A stretch of DNA of 64,000 nucleotides, taken from positions 1-64,000 of the forward strand of contig NZ_PIUM01000006.1 of assembly GCF_002845745.1 (NCBI RefSeq). Reading direction: 5' to 3'. The position numbers and the translations under genes were made by a program. Position 1 is the first letter of the stretch. Every line of letters begins with the position of its first letter. Source of the DNA: Telmatospirillum siberiense. GTDB taxonomy: Bacteria; Pseudomonadota; Alphaproteobacteria; Rhodospirillales; Magnetospirillaceae. This document shows positions 6,517 to 18,518 of this stretch, piece by piece. The notes beneath the pieces are model-generated. The model saw nothing but the letters and a program-made list of their open reading frames with translations. It was not told the origin of the DNA and searched no databases.

Positions 6517-7962
6517 GTGACCGCCATCGCCCATCTTCATCCCGCTCTAGTCTGGAAGCATTTCGCCACTTTGTGCGAGATTCCCCGTCCGTCGAAGCAG
6601 GAGACGGCATTACGCCGCCATATGGCCGATTGGGCGGAAGCCCGCGGCCTGGCTGCCACCATCGATTCCGCCGGCAATCTGCTGATCCGCAAGGCGGCCT
6701 CCAGGGGGCGAGGGGATCGCCTCGGAGTCGTTTTGCAGGCCCACCTCGATATGGTTTGCCAAGCCAACAGCGGCACCGTTCACGATTTCACCCGGGATCC
6801 AATCCGTCCGGTCGAACGCGACGGTTGGCTGACGGCCCCGGACACCACCCTGGGAGCGGACAACGGCATCGGCGTCGCTCTGGCTTTGGCCGCTTTGGAA
6901 GACGAGACGCTGGAGCATCCACCCTTGGAGGTTCTGTTGACCGTCGACGAGGAGGCCGGGATGGGAGGCGCGCGTGGCTTGCCTCCGGGCTTGCTGACCG
7001 GGCGGAAGATGCTCAATCTCGATACCGAGGAATGGGGGGAATTCTATCTGGGCTGCGCGGGGGGCTGCGACGTCGCCGTCATCCGTCATTGCCGTACCGA
7101 GGCCGTGCCCGAGGGCTATGATGGATATCGTCTGCGCGTTCACGGATTGCGGGGCGGTCATTCCGGCGTCGATATTCATTTGGGCCGGGGTAATGCCAAC
7201 AAGTTGCTGATCAGAGTCCTGCGGCGGCTCGAAAAAAACACGAATCTGCGATTGGCCGCCATGTCTGGCGGAACCGCCCGCAACGCCTTGCCGCGCGAGG
7301 CCTGGGCCGACATCGCGCTGCCGGGTCGGGACGCGGCCGGACTCGCGTCCCTGCTGGCCGATCTGCAGGCGCTGTTTCGCGCCGAGCTGGCCGGTGTCGA
7401 CGAAGCCGTCGCCGTCGAGGCGGTGCCGGCCACGGTATCTGCCGCGATCAGCCTGGGCGATCAGTCCGCTCTGCTCGCCGCGCTGCATGCCGCGCCGCAT
7501 GGCGTGCGCCGGATGAGTGCGGATTTCCAAAATGTGGTTGAGACGTCGGACAATCTTGGGCTTCTTTCCCTGAGCGACGGGGATTTTTCGGCCAGTCTGA
7601 TGGTCCGCTCGTTACGCTCGTCGGGAACGGAGATGCTCGCCGACGAAATCGTCAGCCTTTTCACCCTGGCCGGTTGCCGGATCACCGTCAGCGGTGAATA
7701 TCCGGGATGGACCCCCAATCCCCATTCCGCCTTGCTGGCGCTTTGCCAGGACGTTTATGCGCGGGAGTTTGGGGCGGATGCGAACGTCCAGGTGATCCAC
7801 GCCGGACTGGAGTGCGGCATCATCGGCGCCAAATATCCTGAAATCGATACGGTGTCCTTCGGGCCGACCATTCGTGGCGCGCATGCCCCAGGGGAAAGGG
7901 TGGAGATCGCCTCGGTCGACCGGTCCTGGCGTCTTTTGAAAGCCATTCTGGCGGAAATATGA
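6517..7962 (+). CDS. pepD: cytosol non-specific dipeptidase (aminoacyl-histidine dipeptidase)
   Basis: A 481-residue M20C metallopeptidase that hydrolyses dipeptides including Xaa-His in the cytoplasm, using two zinc ions. Motifs: QAHLDM (H76, D78), TLGADNGIGV (D115), DEEAGMGGA (E145, E146), NLDTEEWGE and the C-terminal IRGAHAPGE histidine. It matches the E. coli PepD pattern closely (CEIPRPS, NLLIRK, TVHDFTRDPI). The frame is open back to 6424, but the upstream residues are Pro/His-rich and unlike the family. GTG at 6517 gives the normal length and is preceded by ACAGG, so it is preferred. Divergent from the aldo/keto reductase; 247 bases between them hold both promoters. Confidence 0.92.
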   Translation: MTAIAHLHPALVWKHFATLCEIPRPSKQETALRRHMADWAEARGLAATIDSAGNLLIRKAASRGRGDRLGVVLQAHLDMVCQANSGTVHDFTRDPIRPVERDGWLTAPDTTLGADNGIGVALALAALEDETLEHPPLEVLLTVDEEAGMGGARGLPPGLLTGRKMLNLDTEEWGEFYLGCAGGCDVAVIRHCRTEAVPEGYDGYRLRVHGLRGGHSGVDIHLGRGNANKLLIRVLRRLEKNTNLRLAAMSGGTARNALPREAWADIALPGRDAAGLASLLADLQALFRAELAGVDEAVAVEAVPATVSAAISLGDQSALLAALHAAPHGVRRMSADFQNVVETSDNLGLLSLSDGDFSASLMVRSLRSSGTEMLADEIVSLFTLAGCRITVSGEYPGWTPNPHSALLALCQDVYAREFGADANVQVIHAGLECGIIGAKYPEIDTVSFGPTIRGAHAPGERVEIASVDRSWRLLKAILAEI

Positions 7963-7974
7963 CCCGCCGCGTCG

Positions 7975-8190
7975 TTACGCGCCCTTCTTGCGCGGTCGTT
8001 TGCGCATGCTCGCCCGTTCGCCCTCTTTCCTGTCGATGAACAGGCGTCCGGCCTGCATGGCGGCCCCCCGGCTGATATAGGTTCCGCAATCGAAGCGCTG
8101 CCCGTCGAAGGTGACGGCCAGGGCAAATTTCTGGGGACCCAGCTCCTCGATTTCGAGGGCTGCCCCGGATGGCTCCGGCCGTGCGATCAA
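7975..8190 (-). CDS. small hypothetical protein
   Basis: A 71-residue basic protein of unknown function. The C-terminus is strongly basic (RASMRKRPRKKGA), suggesting nucleic-acid contact, but no domain is recognised. The start is TTG at 8190, which overlaps the TGA of the preceding small gene (TTGA), implying translational coupling. It converges on pepD with a 12-base gap. Confidence 0.55.
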   Translation of the reverse strand: MIARPEPSGAALEIEELGPQKFALAVTFDGQRFDCGTYISRGAAMQAGRLFIDRKEGERASMRKRPRKKGA

Positions 8191-8357
8191 TGGGCGCTGC
8201 TCTTCAAGCGTTCGCTGACGGCGACGGCCGTTTCCTTGGTCGACTGCACGATCTCCGTCAAGCCGCGACGTTCCGCTTCCCTTTGCAGCAGAGCCAGCTT
8301 GCCGAGAAAGGACAGCCAGCCGTCCGCCGAGGTTTTGATATCGTCTTGCTCTGTCAT
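8187..8357 (-). CDS. very small hypothetical protein (56 aa)
   Basis: An ATG-started frame encoding 56 residues: it begins MTEQDDIKTSADGWLSFLGK and ends SERLKSSAH. The composition is that of a soluble, probably all-helical protein, with heptad-like spacing around LALLQREAERRGLTEIV. No family is recognised. Its stop overlaps the TTG start of the next gene, so the pair forms a small coupled operon. The ribosome site is weak (CTCATAG then a T-run). The coupling and coherent composition are the main support. Confidence 0.5.
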   Translation of the reverse strand: MTEQDDIKTSADGWLSFLGKLALLQREAERRGLTEIVQSTKETAVAVSERLKSSAH

Positions 8358-8438
8358 AAAAAAACTATGAGGGCCGGGGAATGGGGGAGCAATGGCTAAA
8401 TGGGGACAAGCGAAAAATAGACGAGGGATCGTGGCGGC

Positions 8439-8466
8439 AGGGTAATCGGGTTCACCCGATTACCCT
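8439..8466. terminator. perfect 12-bp hairpin
   Basis: AGGGTAATCGGG (8439-8450), loop TTCA, then the exact complement (8455-8466). No gene ends just before it on either strand: pepD stops at 7962 and the small gene starts at 8357. It therefore looks like the first stem of the dispersed repeat that continues to 8608 rather than a dedicated terminator. Confidence 0.5.
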
Positions 8467-8477
8467 GGTTTAAATTC

Positions 8478-8608
8478 TTAGTCCCTCAGGCGCCGGGCGG
8501 CGGACATCCGTCCGCCTCGGGCTTCCTTCGCTAAAGCTTCGGGGCACCGCTCAACGCGCCAACGCGACGAGAATCATTCTCGGACGAGCAGCGCGCGCGC
8601 GTTCACCG
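8478..8608. repeat. structured dispersed repeat, copy with 65-bp unit
   Basis: 8484-8530 (CCCTCAGGCGCCGGGC, then a hairpin GGCGGAC-ATCC-GTCCGCC) matches the arrangement at 26667-26710, where the hairpin stem has different bases that still pair. 8544-8608 is copy B of the 65-bp repeat first seen at 489-553. The stretch 8358-8705 has no gene and is largely made of these units plus the leader of trpB2. Confidence 0.65.
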
Positions 8609-11130: not shown

Positions 11131-11570
11131 TGGGGGTTACCTCGACGAGAACATTTGGACAGTTTACCACATGCGGTATTACAACGCCAAAGAACAGTCT
11201 TCAATGCCAATGTGCCGAAAATATGGCAGCACGAAAATATTTTCGGGTTTGGCGTACATCTAAGTAGGTATAGCTGATTTTACTATTCGGATTCTATTTC
11301 TTTGGTTGGGCGGAATGGAGGGGTGGCGTCTTTTCAGGGGGGCGCGTGCTTCGGCTCATGGTGAGCATAATAGACGAGTGCTGAATAACCGCGTCTGCAC
11401 TCTCCATGCCGCGCCACCGGACGGTCGGGCTGGGATGGATCCTCCGTGTCGGCCACGCCTCACACGGCGCTTCGGGCGTTTGGCCCGAAATGACATGGTG
11501 ATTTCTGGGCAAACGCTTAGACTTGCCGGGTGTCTTTCGGGTTTCCCCCCCGTTTTTCATGGAGAGCGAC
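11131..11570. promoter_or_regulatory. mucR promoter region and repeat debris
   Basis: A 440-bp intergenic region between divergent genes. 11131-11300 is AT-rich and contains the palindrome CGAAAATATTTTCG (11232-11245), a plausible MucR-type or other regulator site upstream of mucR. 11330-11520 is GC-rich with no supported gene; it includes a small hairpin TTCGGGC-GTTTG-GCCCGAA (11471-11489) of the dispersed-repeat type. No clear -35/-10 pair is claimed. Confidence 0.4.
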
Positions 11571-12443
11571 ATGTCCCCCACCTTTTCTGCGGCGGCATCC
11601 GGGCCGTTTCTCATCGGCGGTGAGATCGCCGTCAATCGGTTGGGCTTCGGCGCTATGCGCATCACCGGCAAGGGCATCTGGAATGGGCCGGACGACCGGG
11701 CCGAGGCTATCCGGACCTTGCGCCGGTTGCCCGAACTGGGCGTCAATTTCATCGATACGGCGGACAGCTACGGCCCCTTCGTCAGCGAGGATCTGATTGC
11801 CGAGGCTCTGGCTCCCTACGGCGGGCTCCTGGTGGCGACGAAAGGCGGGCTGACCCGGCACGGGCCGAACATCTGGGCGCCGGTCGGGCGGCCGGAATAT
11901 CTGCGTCAATGCGTCCTGATGAGCCTCCGGCGGCTGAAGGTCGAGCAGATCGCCCTCTGGCAGTTGCACCGCATCGATCCCAAGGTGCCGCGCGACGAGC
12001 AGTTCGGCGTCATCGCCGACATGATCAAGGAGGGACTGATCCGTCACGCCGGCTTGAGCGAGGTCGGCGTCGCCGACATCGAAGCCGCCGCCAAGGTCTT
12101 TCCGGTGGCCACCGTGCAGAACCGCTTTAATCTGGTCGACCGCACCAGCGAGGATGTTCTCGACTATTGCACGGCCAAAGGCATCGGTTTCATTCCCTGG
12201 TATCCGCTGGCTGCCGGCACTCTGGCCAAGCCCGGTACGGCCCTGGACGGGATCGTTCGCAAGACCGGCGCCACGCCAAGCCAGATCGCCCTGGCCTGGG
12301 TTCTGAAGTGCAGTCCGGTGATGCTGCCGATTCCCGGCACCGGAAAGCTCGCCCATCTTGAGGACAATGTTCGTGCCGCGGGTATCGTCTTGTCGGATGC
12401 GGATTTTCGGACCCTGGATGCGGAAGGCCGAAGGAAAGCGTAG
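11571..12443 (+). CDS. aldo/keto reductase, oxidoreductase YajO/IolS-like group
   Basis: A 290-residue aldo/keto reductase. It carries the Asp/Tyr pair in FIDTADSYG, Lys in VATKGGL and His in WQLHRIDPK, with the C-terminal cofactor motif [15 protein letters not shown]. This is a different subgroup from the enzyme at 5439-6269, nearer to the subfamily annotated as pyridoxal reductase-like or general stress AKRs. Substrate unknown. The frame opens at 11523, but ATG 11571 is preferred because GGAGAGCGAC lies directly upstream. Monocistronic. Confidence 0.88.
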
Positions 12444-12611
12444 GCGATCCTATCGTTTCGATTTGGCCCCCCGTGCCGTCACCACCAGACCGTCGCCGCC
12501 ATGGGATGAACAGGCATTCACCCCTCTTGTCGCTCGGAGATGATGTCACGACCACGGAAATGCGTTAGATGGCCCATGGTGCGATCTGCTGTTTTTATCG
12601 CATCCGCGCAT

Positions 12612-13124
12612 TCATTTAATTTGCTGCCGGAATTGCAGCGCCAGGGCCATGGCGTCGTCTTTGGCTCTATGTTTTTGCAATGGTGTGTCGGCTGGATGTT
12701 GCGACATTATTGGAAGATCGGCAAAAAGGTCAGGGCTCCTGAACAACGGATCTACCGACTGAAGGTCGAAAGCCGGGCGTTCCATGGTTTCTTCAAACAG
12801 CATGCCCAGCCAATGCGAATCGAATTCGACGGCATCGCTGAAAACGGCCTTGCCGGCAAGGTTGTCATTAAGAGTACGGGCGACGTCCCTGACATCCTGT
12901 CCGTCGCTTTCGAGCGTTTCTCTGTCGAGTCCATGCAGAGCTTCGGCTCGGTGGTCCCACGTCCCTCTTTTCCGCCAGCGGTCAGCAGGTCGGATCAAGG
13001 CTGACCATCCGCTCAGGTCGTGGGCCCGGATAAACCCGATCTCAATCGGGAAACAGCGATCGCCAAGTCCCGAAGCCTCAAGATCGAGAAATACAATGTC
13101 AGAAAGCCTCAACGGCTGGCGCAT
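12612..13124 (-). CDS. DEDDh 3'-5' exonuclease-like protein
   Basis: A 170-residue protein with the RNase T/DnaQ exonuclease signature. Motif ExoI is DIVFLDLEASGLG (Asp and Glu of DxE), followed by FPIEIGFI. HGLDRETL lies between, and the ExoIII-like HRAKDDA near the C-terminus supplies His and Asp. It should degrade single-stranded DNA or RNA from the 3' end with two metal ions. It has no fused polymerase or ATPase domain. Start: ATG 13124 has GCGAGGAT upstream; ATG 13214 would add 30 acidic residues and cannot be excluded. It is the first gene of the 12.6-18.5 kb accessory block. The surrounding DNA is less GC-rich than the core genes. Confidence 0.7.
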   Translation of the reverse strand: MRQPLRLSDIVFLDLEASGLGDRCFPIEIGFIRAHDLSGWSALIRPADRWRKRGTWDHRAEALHGLDRETLESDGQDVRDVARTLNDNLAGKAVFSDAVEFDSHWLGMLFEETMERPAFDLQSVDPLFRSPDLFADLPIMSQHPADTPLQKHRAKDDAMALALQFRQQIK

Positions 13125-13439
13125 CGTTTCATCCTCGCTGTCAGGGTTAGCTTTGATTGAGGTTCCATCCTCGTCATTCTCGAGAGGAGATACGTCAAAT
13201 ATGGACGTTAGCATTTTGAGTTCTTTGCATTAGGCCTTGCCACCGCGCACGGGTGGGCTTTCAATCCTTTGCACGATAAGTGTATCGCGAATGATCCCTG
13301 CAATAGGACGGTGAAGCCTTTCATTTTACGAAATCCAGAGCAACTTCCGATTTGTGGCTAGTGGGCGATAAAGTCGTCGATAATAGTGGTGGTCAGTGAT
13401 GATGAGGAAGCAGCCTAAATAATTTCGAGCGGAGAAATA

Positions 13440-14276
13440 ATGAAACAGAATAGCCGGCATTTTCGTATGCTCCAGGCGGAGCGGGACGTTGCACGCGCTG
13501 TCGCCTCAATGTCGGAAGCACCTTATAGGCCTGGTACATTTGCTACGATTTCTTTTCCTGTTCTCAGCAGAGATGAGGGGCCAAAGTTCGACAACGCGCC
13601 GCTGATTTCTCAAATCGTGCAGAAACGCCCTTCGGCGTTGTTGTTGTGTGCGGGATGGTCTGTCGCCAACCAAGGAGGCATCGACCAGATACGGAAGGCA
13701 ATTGGAAATCTGGCGACAACCGTTATTGCAGAGACGACAGATACAGAAGAAAAAGAGATTTATAGAATCGATAAAAAAGGCTGCCACGCCATGGGAGGCC
13801 AGTGTTTTTACAAAAGCAGCGATAGGTCCATCGGAAAAGTGCGTGATCTCTTGGACCTCTTGGTAAGCGGAAAGCGTATTTTCGAAGTTGCAGGTGGATC
13901 TGCTGCGCTATTTATGTGTGGGGAGAATGCAATTTTGAGTTGTGTTCCCGCACAAAAAGGAGAACGCAGAGATAAGGTCGGCTATCACAAAAACGTTGAT
14001 AAAAATATGAAAGAAATTATTCGTAATTCACGTATTATATTGCACCCAACCCATACGATATTGCCTTTTGCTGGTATTCAAAAGCTGAAGCGTCGTTTTT
14101 TTTCTGACAGACGCCTATATATATCGTCGTCAAATTGGGAAATTGACCGCGCCCCAAAAGATTGGAATTCGCTTCACACGGTAATGCGGAACGGCACAGT
14201 TCTGTCACCAACCTTTTGCGAGAATTCAGAACTGATGTCGTATCGCGAATGGTCTTTTGAAGGGGCTTCCAGTTGA
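13440..14276 (+). CDS. unknown protein, possibly nitrilase-like fold
   Basis: A 278-residue protein of unknown function. One stretch resembles the nitrilase superfamily: a hydrophobic strand followed by ALFMCGENAIL (C160-G-E), where nitrilases place the nucleophile Cys, and RIILHPTHTILP where they have a strand plus Asn/Pro loop. A catalytic Glu in the first quarter is not evident (the strand is ALLLCAG), so activity is doubtful. The gene is visibly AT-rich from 13960 to 14130, unlike its neighbours, which suggests horizontal transfer. CGGAG precedes ATG 13440. Its TGA overlaps the TTG start of the next gene, so the two are translationally coupled and probably work together. Confidence 0.45.
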   Translation: MKQNSRHFRMLQAERDVARAVASMSEAPYRPGTFATISFPVLSRDEGPKFDNAPLISQIVQKRPSALLLCAGWSVANQGGIDQIRKAIGNLATTVIAETTDTEEKEIYRIDKKGCHAMGGQCFYKSSDRSIGKVRDLLDLLVSGKRIFEVAGGSAALFMCGENAILSCVPAQKGERRDKVGYHKNVDKNMKEIIRNSRIILHPTHTILPFAGIQKLKRRFFSDRRLYISSSNWEIDRAPKDWNSLHTVMRNGTVLSPTFCENSELMSYREWSFEGASS

Positions 14277-14890
14277 GCGCCATCCCTTCCTATTGTTCCC
14301 TGAGGTCCCCTGGGCGTACGATACGGCCACTTTGTAAAATATTGGAAGAACTTGGGCTTGCTCCGCGTTATGAGGCGCGCTTCCCCTGGTTAACTTTGCC
14401 GAATGTAATCGGCGAGGGCTCTCCCGATGAACTCCGAGTTGCGGAGGCGTTGACCGATCATGCGGCGAGTACCGTCTCTCGATTGCGCCGAGACCTTGAA
14501 CTGGGGGCGCCCAAGAGAGGTCGGCACCGCAAGGCGGATTGTGATCTGGCTAAGCTTCTGCAGCCGATGTCGACCGTTTTGTCGCTCGACATCTGGCTGG
14601 CTGATCTCGGCTTGGCAATTGAGTTCGATGAGAGGCAACATTTTTCTGAAGAACGGAGAGTGTCTCTTGATGCCTATCCGGACGACGATTTCCCATTTTC
14701 GGTGAGCCGTTGGCGATCCGAGTGTTCGTCGGTAATTTACGATCCGACACCACCGTCACGTGACTGGCGCCGTGCGTTTCGCGATTCGGTGCGCGACTTA
14801 CGGTGTCGTGCTCACGGCCTACGATTGATCCGTCTGAACTATAAAGACTCGTTGGATCGGGTGGGAGAACTTCTGATGGCCTCTGAGTAG
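14273..14890 (+). CDS. PD-(D/E)XK nuclease-like protein
   Basis: A 205-residue protein with a likely PD-(D/E)XK endonuclease core of the Vsr/DUF559 type: SLDIWLADLGLAIEFDERQHF (D106, E117, D119 or E120, then Q122-H123), and later RDSVRDLRCRAHGLRLIRLNY, the helix-strand that usually closes this fold. The catalytic Lys is not evident; Gln or His may replace it, as in some family members. The N-terminal 90 residues are basic and may bind DNA. The start is TTG 14273, overlapping the previous stop (TTGA). Function is inferred from the motif only. Paired with a nitrilase-like gene, it forms an unrecognised two-gene cassette. Confidence 0.5.
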   Translation: MSAIPSYCSLRSPGRTIRPLCKILEELGLAPRYEARFPWLTLPNVIGEGSPDELRVAEALTDHAASTVSRLRRDLELGAPKRGRHRKADCDLAKLLQPMSTVLSLDIWLADLGLAIEFDERQHFSEERRVSLDAYPDDDFPFSVSRWRSECSSVIYDPTPPSRDWRRAFRDSVRDLRCRAHGLRLIRLNYKDSLDRVGELLMASE

Positions 14891-14932
14891 AGGCTTTGCA
14901 GAATATTGGGAGAGCTTTCATGCATCAGGGCG

Positions 14933-15937
14933 TCATGCGATCTCATTCCCGGTAAAACAGGATATCTGCTCGGCCATCATCCGTTTCAGTTCCGGCGGTT
15001 CCAGCACTTCGATCTCACCGCCCCAGGTAAACAGATGCCAGCACATCTCCACCAGTCCTCCGGCACGGAATTTTACGATCAGGGAGCCGTCGGGCTGGTC
15101 TTCCATTGTTTGCGATGGATGAAAAATCCAGGTGCGGGCGTCCTCGGCCGATGTGGGGCGGACCCGCCATGCGACCTCGACCGGAGATTCCTGAAAGGTT
15201 CCGAACGAACGGGCGGCATAGTCCGCAAGTGAGAACGTCGGGTCGCGTACAAAGGTCGTCTTCAGTTGCCAGGCCTTGTCGATGTTGGCGAGGCTGAAAA
15301 GGCGCAGACCTTCAGCTTGCGGATTTGCGCTCCGCGCCACCAGATAGGGCCGCAGACCATAAAGAAATCCGTACGGCTCCACTGTTTGATGGCTGATTGA
15401 TCCGGTGCCCCGGGACCGATAGTCGAATGCGACCTGCTGGGAACATAGAATGGCGAGCCGCAATAAGTCCCGGGTGTCGCCTTCGATCGTTGCCTGGGGA
15501 CCGGGGCGGAAAGCCAAACCCTCGGACTGAACGAGCAACTCGTAATCCGGTTCGATCCGGGTCAGCGTCTCACGCGGCAGATAGGTCCTCAGCTTTGCTC
15601 CGAGTTTGTCCAGCAAAGCGGCCTGCTCTTCGCGTCCTTCATGTCTGAGCGATTCCGCGCCGGCGGCCAGTGCCGTCATTTCTCCCGCCTGGATAGGATC
15701 GGGAGTACGGTTGAGCCCGGCCGGTATCCGCCACCGCTTCAAGCCATCCGGTGCCCATTCCTCCAGGTAATCGGGATATAGGCGGAGTACCGCATCCCTC
15801 ATGCGTTCGGCGGTGCGGCGGCTGACATCGAAGCGCTCCTCGATTTCGCCAAGAGTCAGGCCGGTGACCGATCCCTGCATGTCTCGAGCAAGGCGCATCA
15901 GGTTCTCAGCCTTTTCATGGCGCGCACTTTTGGTCAT
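14933..15937 (-). CDS. WYL-domain transcriptional regulator
   Basis: A 334-residue regulator with an N-terminal winged-HTH (about 1-65, LTLGEIEERFDVSRRTAERMR), a WYL domain (about 155-235) and a C-terminal WCX-type extension. WYL proteins sense nucleic-acid or nucleotide ligands and often control DNA-repair or phage-defence genes. The signature WYL triplet reads PYL here (197-199, GLRPYLVA), with the conserved Tyr, Leu and flanking Arg kept. ATG 15937 has TAGGA upstream. It converges on the coupled gene pair ending at 14890 and follows the helical-repeat gene by 54 bases on the same strand, so it may be co-transcribed with that gene. Confidence 0.85.
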   Translation of the reverse strand: MTKSARHEKAENLMRLARDMQGSVTGLTLGEIEERFDVSRRTAERMRDAVLRLYPDYLEEWAPDGLKRWRIPAGLNRTPDPIQAGEMTALAAGAESLRHEGREEQAALLDKLGAKLRTYLPRETLTRIEPDYELLVQSEGLAFRPGPQATIEGDTRDLLRLAILCSQQVAFDYRSRGTGSISHQTVEPYGFLYGLRPYLVARSANPQAEGLRLFSLANIDKAWQLKTTFVRDPTFSLADYAARSFGTFQESPVEVAWRVRPTSAEDARTWIFHPSQTMEDQPDGSLIVKFRAGGLVEMCWHLFTWGGEIEVLEPPELKRMMAEQISCFTGNEIA

Positions 15938-15991
15938 GACAAAATTCCTATACTCCCCATTCCAATACGGTAGCGCCCAGCATCGGAATAA

Positions 15992-16681
15992 TCACGCTTT
16001 GGATGCCGTTGCGGTGAATAACGTCCCCATGTGTTCGGCCAACTCTCCAAGTGCAATGGCTTTCCAGCCGAGTTCTGTTATGGCTTCAATCGCCGCGTGG
16101 CAGGCTTCGGCGTTACCATCGCAAATATGGGCGATCGCCACCTTTCGCAAAGCAAGGCTGCGGCAACCGGAATCGCCGATGGACCGGCCCAGTTTTTCCG
16201 CTTCGGCGATTCGACCTATTTTCACCATGGCGATTGCCAAGTCGGACATCTGATAATCCCCATCCACGTATTTCTCCTGAAATTCGAGAATATCGCGTGC
16301 TCGGTCGAGGTCGCCGATGATCAGGTAACTACGAAAACAGGTCTCAAGCGAAATACGCCGTTTCCAGGGCGTACGGATACGACGGGCATCAATATCGGCC
16401 GATTCAGCCAATGACGTGGCTTTTTCGGGCATGTTTGCCTTCGTGCATGCGCGGATAAGGGTAAGGATGATCGTGCTCCGGTCAAAAGGACTGAGCCGTC
16501 TGATGCCGCGTTCCGCATAGTCCAGGTACCGGGAAAAGCGCGGGCCGTCTCCGAGCGCAGCGGCGTGTGAGGCCAGATTTGCAAACGCACGCGCCTGAAG
16601 CCAAGGGCGGGCGGCCAGCGTCGCGGCGTTCTCCGCTTCATCAAGCAAAGCTTCGATCTTAGCCGCGATGTCGTCCGTCAT
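15992..16681 (-). CDS. helical-repeat (TPR-like) protein
   Basis: A 229-residue soluble, all-helical protein with repeated two-helix units (for example ARAFANLASHAAALGD, LAIAMVKIGRIAEAEKL, SLALRKVAIAHICDGN) spaced about 34-40 residues. This resembles TPR or SEL1-like solenoids used as protein-binding scaffolds. No catalytic motif is seen. The frame continues to 16822, but ATG 16681 is preceded by a strong GAGGGAG site and the upstream residues look unstructured. It probably lies in an operon with the WYL regulator downstream. Role unknown. Confidence 0.6.
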   Translation of the reverse strand: MTDDIAAKIEALLDEAENAATLAARPWLQARAFANLASHAAALGDGPRFSRYLDYAERGIRRLSPFDRSTIILTLIRACTKANMPEKATSLAESADIDARRIRTPWKRRISLETCFRSYLIIGDLDRARDILEFQEKYVDGDYQMSDLAIAMVKIGRIAEAEKLGRSIGDSGCRSLALRKVAIAHICDGNAEACHAAIEAITELGWKAIALGELAEHMGTLFTATASKA

Positions 16682-17018
16682 GGTCGCTCCCTCAAGAAAG
16701 GTCAGGGGGCGTTTATAATCGACGCCCACGTCAAAAACGGTCGTGTTGGCCGATGTTGGTGAAGTCGTGTCGATGTGTCCGAATGTGACGCGTAGACGTT
16801 GTAGGAATGGAAATAAGAGCATTTCTGAGAAAAGATAAAATTTTGTCTTTGATCGTTATTGTATTTTTTTGAACCATCGTCATAGTGTGTGATTTATTTA
16901 GTCTGTTTCCATGTATATTATTAATGCGCGATGAATAATGGCATATGTATTTAATTCACAAATGAAAATTGATATTTCATTCAACATAAGTTCTGTCTGA
17001 ACTGCCAATGAGGCGGAG
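16682..17018. promoter_or_regulatory. AT-rich divergent promoter region
   Basis: 337 bases between divergent genes. 16830-17000 is strikingly AT-rich compared with the genome. It should contain promoters for the helical-repeat gene (minus) and the FtsZ-C-like gene (plus). A 72-codon minus-strand frame at 16898-17116 overlaps the start of the next gene and lacks a ribosome site, so it is not called. Confidence 0.45.
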
Positions 17019-17543
17019 ATGAATTTTTTAACTGTCGTGATCTCTGTCGGCAATGGGACCGGGAAAATCTGGTGCGTGGAACTGGACATGGTCCGAGAAG
17101 CCGACCGTCTCGTCATTGGAGTCGGGCGGGACAGGACATGCGACGGGGTTCTGACCCATTCGGTCGAAGACCCTGATCAATTGCCTGTCTTCCTGGGACT
17201 CCTGGGATCATTCCTTTTCAAGCCAAGCCTCGTCGGTATCGACATTGCCGATCTGAACGCCGTCCTCCGAAGAGGTCAGGGGATTCGCGTCGGCGTCGGC
17301 CATTGCGACCTGCCCGGCGGACTGACGAAAGCGGGGCTTCTGGCGATGCGCTCCGCCGGAGTCGGTCCTGCCACTCGTGGCGTCGCCTTGGAGGTGGAGA
17401 TACCGAAGAGCGGAACCTTGTTCGATGTGGACATCTGTGCCGCCGCCGTTCGAAATTCGATATCCGGGGAAGCCGATTTTATCGTCTGGGCGACGGTCTC
17501 CAGAATCCCTGGCTACGTTGTTACCCTGATGGCTGTTACGTAA
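17019..17543 (+). CDS. orphan FtsZ C-terminal-domain-like protein
   Basis: A 174-residue protein. Residues 65-95 (FLFKPSLVGIDIADLNAVLRRGQG) follow the FtsZ core-helix pattern in which ...GLINIDFADVRAVM... leads into the C-terminal domain. Residues 118-174 fit the FtsZ_C strand pattern: GVALEVEIPKSGTLFDVD, EADFIVWATV, YVVTLMAV. The N-terminal GTPase domain and its GGGTGTG loop are absent; SVGNGTGK near residue 9 is only a faint echo. If correct, it cannot bind GTP by itself and might cap or interfere with tubulin-like filaments. A good ribosome site (GAGGCGGAG) precedes ATG 17019. The family call is by eye and tentative. Confidence 0.45.
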   Translation: MNFLTVVISVGNGTGKIWCVELDMVREADRLVIGVGRDRTCDGVLTHSVEDPDQLPVFLGLLGSFLFKPSLVGIDIADLNAVLRRGQGIRVGVGHCDLPGGLTKAGLLAMRSAGVGPATRGVALEVEIPKSGTLFDVDICAAAVRNSISGEADFIVWATVSRIPGYVVTLMAVT

Positions 17544-17693
17544 TCCCGCGCAAAAGAAACAGCGCGTCAGGGCGACGGACTTTAAACAGGCCGCTTCAAT
17601 GAGCAATGTCGCTTCGCCATTGTAATCATCACGCAGATCAGCTTTCCCAGCGTCGGAGAAGATGATCGGTCATTTGGCGAAGTCGCGAACCGG

Positions 17694-18389
17694 TCAGCGA
17701 GCCTTGCCAATTCCGGGATGGATCTCCAGCGACTGTCCGGCTGACTGTCCCGCCTCGAATGCTCCGGCCTCCACCTTCTTTCCCGATGCGCGGCCCTGCC
17801 GAAGGTTGAGGTTCAGTTTTTCAAACTCAGATTCAACGACGGCATGACGAACAACAACGAGATTGCGCCCGGTGTCGGCCAGAATGGCGGCATCGCGGCC
17901 GGCCTTCATGGAGGTCAGCTTGTCGGCAATGGAAACGGCCATGCCAAATAGAAACGACCCTTTTTCATCGTGCGAATGGCGGATGAAGCGTTGCGAACGG
18001 GAATATTGCTCCCAGGCTCTCTGCATCGCGGCGGCGATCACGTCGTAGACATAATGGGCCATCTCGATGCTGGGTCTAAGGCCGAAGAACACGAAGAGAA
18101 CTTTGCCGCTTTCATCTTTCTCCCGCCAAACCTTGCAGTCGCAAAAGTCTGCGATGGCCGGCACGCAGGAGGAGATGGGCTGCCGTTGCTTCCTGTTGGT
18201 TTCGATAGCGACCTTAGCGCACTGCTCTTCCCGAATTTCCAAATCGCTGATTGAAAGGTCGTAGCGATCCAGCAGTTCCGCCACTTTGGCGGCAGCCGAG
18301 AGGGCTTCTTCCTCGGTGCAGCCATTGGCGATGGTTTTCGCCCTGAGCGCCTGGAGGCGGGTCTTCAGTTTATCGAGGTCGGTTGCCAT
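17694..18389 (-). CDS. DUF2786 domain protein
   Basis: A 231-residue protein. The N-terminal ~45 residues match DUF2786 (LKTRLQALRAKTIANGCTEE, then AKVAELLDRYDLSISDLEI). The remainder resembles the companion domain usually found with it (CDCKVWREKD, HYVYDVIAAAMQRAW). Such proteins are frequent on phages, plasmids and islands; their function is unknown. ATG 18389 was chosen over a longer frame to 18452 because the domain starts directly after it. It lies between the orphan FtsZ-like gene and the tRNA, at the edge of the accessory block. Confidence 0.72.
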   Translation of the reverse strand: MATDLDKLKTRLQALRAKTIANGCTEEEALSAAAKVAELLDRYDLSISDLEIREEQCAKVAIETNRKQRQPISSCVPAIADFCDCKVWREKDESGKVLFVFFGLRPSIEMAHYVYDVIAAAMQRAWEQYSRSQRFIRHSHDEKGSFLFGMAVSIADKLTSMKAGRDAAILADTGRNLVVVRHAVVESEFEKLNLNLRQGRASGKKVEAGAFEAGQSAGQSLEIHPGIGKAR

Positions 18390-18518
18390 CACATGGAGCT
18401 GTCCAATTTGGGCAGTGTTTTTTCCATAGGAGCGAAGCAGGCGGGGCCGCAAGGGACCCCAAGGAAAAAACTCACAGAGCCGGTCGCAGGACGTATTGGG
18501 CGGGGCGGAGGATTGGAA

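Follow-up and report, generated by a model that had tools for sequence, protein, structure and literature searches.

The window analysed here is the 64,000 nt stretch at positions 1-64,000 of the forward strand of contig NZ_PIUM01000006.1 from Telmatospirillum siberiense (GCF_002845745.1). It contains two adjacent genes, ORF1 and ORF2, which are listed in Table 1 together with the features around them. An earlier reading of the sequence (the original prediction) had described a TTGA overlap between the two genes and a non-ATG start for the second, and both were found, the start of ORF2 being TTG. This arrangement, as read from the sequence, makes translational coupling via the overlap likely. 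The AT-rich intergenic region upstream of ORF1 is the probable promoter region of the pair. Moreover, PADLOC and Pfam matches agree with the two neighbours named beforehand, a DEDDh exonuclease-like gene and a WYL regulator.

Table 1. Features of the ORF1-ORF2 locus, in coordinates of the window.
Feature	Coordinates	Strand	Details
Segment without matching DNA in three congeners, includes the pair	11230..18513	.	Comparison at corresponding places
DEDDh-like 3'-5' exonuclease	12612..13214	-	PADLOC E 1.2e-9
AT-rich divergent intergenic region, probable promoter region	13215..13439	.	46.7% GC; sequence reading and GC
GGAG, 5 nt 5' of ORF1 ATG	13431-13434	+	Read directly
ORF1 (P0001)	13440..14276	+	278 aa, ATG start; predicted nitrilase-superfamily fold, CGE subtype
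Shine-Dalgarno-like AAGGGG, 7 nt 5' of ORF2 TTG	14260..14265	+	Read directly
TTGA overlap, ORF1 stop / ORF2 start	14273..14276	+	Read directly from sequence; ORF1 stop TGA 14274-14276, ORF2 TTG begins at 14273
ORF2 (P0002)	14273..14890	+	205 aa, TTG start; predicted DUF7255 / Vsr-DUF559-like nuclease
WYL/WCX-domain regulator, convergent with the pair	14933..15937	-	Pfam WCX E 3e-15, WYL E 3e-8

Both genes had been thought AT-rich and foreign in appearance. This holds for ORF1, whose GC content of 46.6% places it inside the lowest-GC stretch of the window (61.9% overall; mean 61.8%, sd 4.5, in a scan of 837-nt windows), whereas ORF2 is only mildly low at 55.8%. The pair is flanked by housekeeping genes (tryptophan-synthase-beta-like, glmU and glmS, names assigned from their sequences). 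At the loci corresponding to ~11.2-18.5 kb, three congeneric genomes hold no matching DNA and carry different genes instead, so that the region is variable, a single insertion not being proven. The pair itself was absent from the congeners searched and is rare and patchy in the class (3 of 289 genomes). For one congeneric genome (G003) the listing gives 0.9 Mb at 100% completeness, against 5.7-7.1 Mb for its congeners, which reflects either strong genome reduction or an artefact of grouping.

ORF1 matched nothing in Pfam (the CN_hydrolase model included), NCBIfam, PADLOC or PHROGs, and a single-sequence scan of genome contigs with it found nothing. Profile comparison of ORF1-type proteins (type C, see below) with canonical nitrilases was too weak alone, and a sequence search of the PDB with the type C nitrilase and nuclease profiles gave no real matches. 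The assignment was settled by a structure search. For a model predicted from eight type C sequences (pLDDT 68.5, pTM 0.73), all 40 of 40 PDB matches at E<=1e-3 belonged to the nitrilase superfamily, among them cyanide dihydratase, amidases, beta-ureidopropionase and the glutaminase domain of NAD synthetase. TM-scores were ~0.5, so the fold is clear and the model is not fine-grained. By this model ORF1 has the nitrilase alpha-beta-beta-alpha fold, in keeping with the nitrilase-like character that its MCGEN motif, present as described, had suggested.

The active site of this subtype is altered. Q121, C160-G161-E162, H205 and S222 are invariant across 13 ORF1 relatives. The places of the canonical Lys and Glu were assigned by strand topology and alignment with the GRK-containing type B partners rather than by residue superposition; at the former, which ends the strand preceding the Cys half, stands Gln121 in 13/13, and at the latter, also a strand end, none of the 12 sequences spanning it has Glu. 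Of the Glu-Lys-Cys triad, therefore, Cys160 is kept (13/13) and both other residues are gone; the lack of an obvious Glu noted beforehand thus extends to relatives and is joined by that of the Lys. This loss argues against ordinary amidase chemistry in the ORF1 subtype.

We take ORF2 to be a predicted nuclease of the Vsr/DUF559-like (PD-(D/E)XK-type) kind belonging to family DUF7255 (PF23913), on the grounds of its sequence and modelled structure. It matches DUF7255 at 30.2 bits, above the curated cut-off of 27. All 28 relatives match the family at E<=0.1, and 15 of them weakly match DUF559 as well, which upholds the likeness to Vsr/DUF559 nucleases that had been seen in its IEFDERQH motif. 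D106, E117, D119, E120, Q122, H123 and F124 are invariant in 28/28 relatives (motif D-x10-E-x-DExQH). The model (pLDDT 85) has strands at 102-109 and 114-119, a helix at 161-180 and a strand at 184-189, and thus shows both the D...E-x-D acidic core and the C-terminal helix-strand half of Vsr/DUF559-like enzymes. The fold search proposed originally for both proteins, which gave PDB nitrilases for ORF1, returned no significant PDB match for ORF2 (Vsr at E 3.2). Among viral predicted structures, the ORF2 model matched restriction enzymes, homing endonucleases, DUF2726 and DUF559 (E 7e-4 to 0.04, probability mostly 1.0). Plasmid and phage collections gave no matches. Nor did a search of 398 genomes of the phylum with the Pfam DUF7255 model; it missed ORF2 itself and is therefore uninformative. 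Several related nucleases, including those of L012, L017, L022, L029, L044, L051 and L058, carry an N-terminal domain of ~90 aa (SafL...g..lPAKfI...AY...GG...LGF) that ORF2 lacks; it has no Pfam match, and we presume it to resemble the N-terminal head of McrA-type enzymes.

A survey of homologues for conserved adjacency, also proposed originally, bore out the pairing. Nuclease relatives came from three sources, namely whole genomes, the contigs of 84,980 species and viral contigs, and the clade with the DExQH motif comprised 53 loci in bacteria and archaea, counting the window and one locus on a viral contig. Profiles built in this analysis placed a nitrilase-type gene fused or adjacent to the nuclease in 35 of the 53. 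These partners fall into type A (intact Glu-Lys-Cys; 18 loci), type B (PGG/GRK/CYD; 5 loci), type C (CGE, as in ORF1; 9 loci) and type D (CHD; 3 loci), the last being called nitrilase-like because a comparison of profiles links it to type B (probability 91%). The Pfam CN_hydrolase model recognises type A partners, which keep Glu51-Lys111-Cys148 in 8/8. Three active-site states thus occur among the partners: an intact triad, no Glu, and neither Glu nor Lys. The partner profiles had no other match in the 53 loci, in 14 control regions (16 kb, same contigs) or in the rest of the 64-kb window.

The nitrilase-type gene comes first in the window and in L063, L044, L047, L051 and L060, and most other loci are nuclease-first. 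Single-chain fusions occur in about 20 loci and in both domain orders (nitrilase-nuclease in L055; nuclease-nitrilase in L012, L019 and L022). The pair recurs across phyla, which is more than chance would give.

A further recurrent domain, type E, differs from the nitrilase types and is the partner in 10/53 loci (nine by profile, L034 by eye). Its motif HPVRHELYYF...HPTT...APCAINEGP replaces the nitrilase mainly in methanogenic and ANME archaea, fused to the nuclease in L017, L018, L021, L023 and L024 and separate in L026 and L058. The remaining eight loci (L027, L038, L053, L056, L057, L059, L062 and L070), some of which are disrupted or lie at contig ends, show none of types A-E; in L027 a TIR-like gene (L027:1077-1577, found by eye) lies directly upstream of the nuclease. 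In Actinobacteria, no nitrilase accompanies a divergent nuclease branch (part of L064-L080, and viral L082), and at two of its loci a SIR2-domain protein follows the nuclease (L064:8571-10223, L065:8608-10224).

In the nuclease tree, ORF2 groups with the nucleases of L063 and L055 (support 99/98), its exact place within this trio being unsure owing to its long branch. Both relatives have the same order as ORF1-ORF2: in L063 (Rhodobacteraceae) the nitrilase (7181-7990) overlaps the nuclease (7983-8576), and in L055 (Lautropia) the two form one 540-aa fusion. On this tree type C requires 6 changes, well-supported branches making at least 4 of them unavoidable; for types D and E the minimum is 3 each. 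Therefore, the coupling has been kept while partners were replaced.

Viewed from the nitrilase side, the linkage is looser. A nitrilase-led search of Alphaproteobacteria found five genomes with a type C protein, and a nuclease adjoins it in 1/5, the window's own. In two alphaproteobacterial genomes the solo type C gene lies directly after a primase/RepA-like gene (L010:8145-8987, L107:8165-8992) and is probably mobile cargo of an integrated element. The original prediction had asked whether homologues of the two genes are unlinked; they are linked from the nuclease side (35/53), but alphaproteobacterial type C nitrilases mostly stand without a nuclease neighbour, so that the linkage is strong in one direction only, starting from the nuclease.

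WYL regulators had been named beforehand as common at phage-defence loci, and WYL genes are indeed enriched near the related nucleases. Among 30 loci with complete flanks, 8 have one up to about 3 kb away from the nuclease (the window, L015, L022, L030, L035, L049, L051 and L054), against 0/14 control regions (p=0.002 by length, p=0.03 by locus; the sample is small, each genome supplying one control region). A WYL gene is present at each of the three alphaproteobacterial loci that the nuclease search had turned up first. The WYL gene beside ORF2 is thus a probable regulator or island marker of the pair. PADLOC families apart from WYL were not clearly denser near the pair than in control regions; of the enrichment in defence islands originally envisaged, that of WYL is the convincing part. 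L035 has DpdE/ZorD helicase-like, AbiU-like and type II restriction enzyme-like genes beside it, and serine recombinase, relaxase or integrase genes adjoin L012, L030, L036 and L063. The DEDDh exonuclease, considered as a third component, was dropped since it does not recur at related loci. Next to the WYL gene of the window is a TPR/PPR-like repeat gene (15992-16822); a genome of the same family (G006) has a look-alike (L098:7252-8181) near a related WYL gene, and a related DEDDh gene nearby too.

We propose, with a little less than even confidence, that ORF1 and ORF2 are the two components of one module, which would protect its host from phages or mobile DNA. The ORF2 nuclease would be the effector, restrained or switched on by the nitrilase-fold protein, and the adjacent WYL gene would control expression of the pair. 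With its Glu-Lys pair lost and its invariant Cys kept, ORF1 would more likely bind or covalently sense a small molecule or modified substrate than carry out ordinary amide or nitrile hydrolysis. More tentatively, the loci could represent a wide-ranging defence architecture in which nitrilase-fold proteins, exchangeable among loci, control DUF7255 nucleases; one subtype, its Glu and Lys replaced but its Cys kept, would then be a sensor or gate. With their intact triad, type A partners may be active enzymes, and this keeps alive a reading in which the nitrilase is the effector.

In that reading the roles are reversed: the nuclease-family protein would recognise invading nucleic acid and the nitrilase would be a toxic effector acting on an essential metabolite that bears an amide, such as NAD+ or a nucleotide, as proposed for the nitrilase domain of DRT1. 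The 8/8 conservation of the type A triad fits, as do the nearby TIR gene of L027 and SIR2 genes of L064 and L065, three nuclease loci without a nitrilase; TIR and SIR2 folds are known as NAD-cleaving effectors. Moreover, the DRT1 nitrilase domain is described as the effector (PMC13275509). We nevertheless regard reversed roles as unlikely, given that the ORF1 subtype has no intact canonical triad (Gln in 13/13) and that the nuclease motif, unchanged in 28/28, looks like that of an active enzyme. Tight coupling and the mobile-element settings of L012, L036 and L063 would also suit an addiction pair resembling a toxin-antitoxin system, with a nuclease toxin and a nitrilase-fold antitoxin kept by mobile elements and no specific anti-phage role, yet one-chain fusions are unusual for a classical pair and type C nitrilases also exist alone; this seems quite improbable.

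Similarly improbable, if not slightly more so, is a DNA-repair or nucleotide-salvage pair of a Vsr-like nicking enzyme and an amidohydrolase for damaged bases. The nuclease is related to Vsr/DUF559 and amide bonds are the general target of nitrilase folds, but the rarity of the pair in the class, its patchiness, its absence from the congeners searched and its variable or mobile surroundings are unlike housekeeping repair. That two chance neighbours were acquired together is hardly credible at all: type C nitrilases can occur without the nuclease, but both gene orders are found, and the fusions both ways and the recurrence in 35/53 loci rule out chance adjacency.

If the preferred reading of a nuclease effector gated by a nitrilase fold is right, it would provide a concrete, testable function for DUF7255, a nuclease family with none on record, and a second, independent place tying nitrilase folds to nucleic-acid enzymes. 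Few nitrilases are known from phage defence, DRT1 being the one well-studied case, with its substrate still open. Moreover, the natural fusions and the three active-site states allow a direct enzyme-versus-sensor test of the nitrilase fold.

The original prediction knew of no described two-gene system with this pairing, and we found none in the open-access literature searched, where nothing mentions DUF7255 or joins a nitrilase with DUF559 and where nitrilases appear in phage defence solely as reverse-transcriptase fusions. The cognate methyltransferase of a restriction-modification system was found neither among the neighbours scanned at 10.7-18.5 kb nor recurrently beside the relatives. BrxR/CapW-like WYL regulators are known from defence systems, which they control (PMC9122601, PMC9122588), and the module resembles their loci in its WYL neighbour (8/30) but differs in that no BREX, CBASS or other listed system lies beside it and in that the WYL orientation varies. 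ORF2 and its relatives belong to DUF7255, a family without described function or recorded nitrilase partner. ORF1 is like the nitrilase superfamily in its predicted fold and in having an invariant Cys at the corresponding position, and departs from it in having no Pfam match, no Glu and Gln in place of Lys. The defence reverse transcriptases DRT1 and UG5 carry a nitrilase domain (PMC13275509, PMC9122126), and there too phage defence joins such a domain with an enzyme that works on nucleic acids. However, the DRT1 nitrilase keeps its catalytic tetrad, and the partner here is a restriction-like nuclease, a domain scan having found no RT domain in ORF1 or ORF2. We rate the DUF7255-nitrilase architecture as new, although both folds are known.
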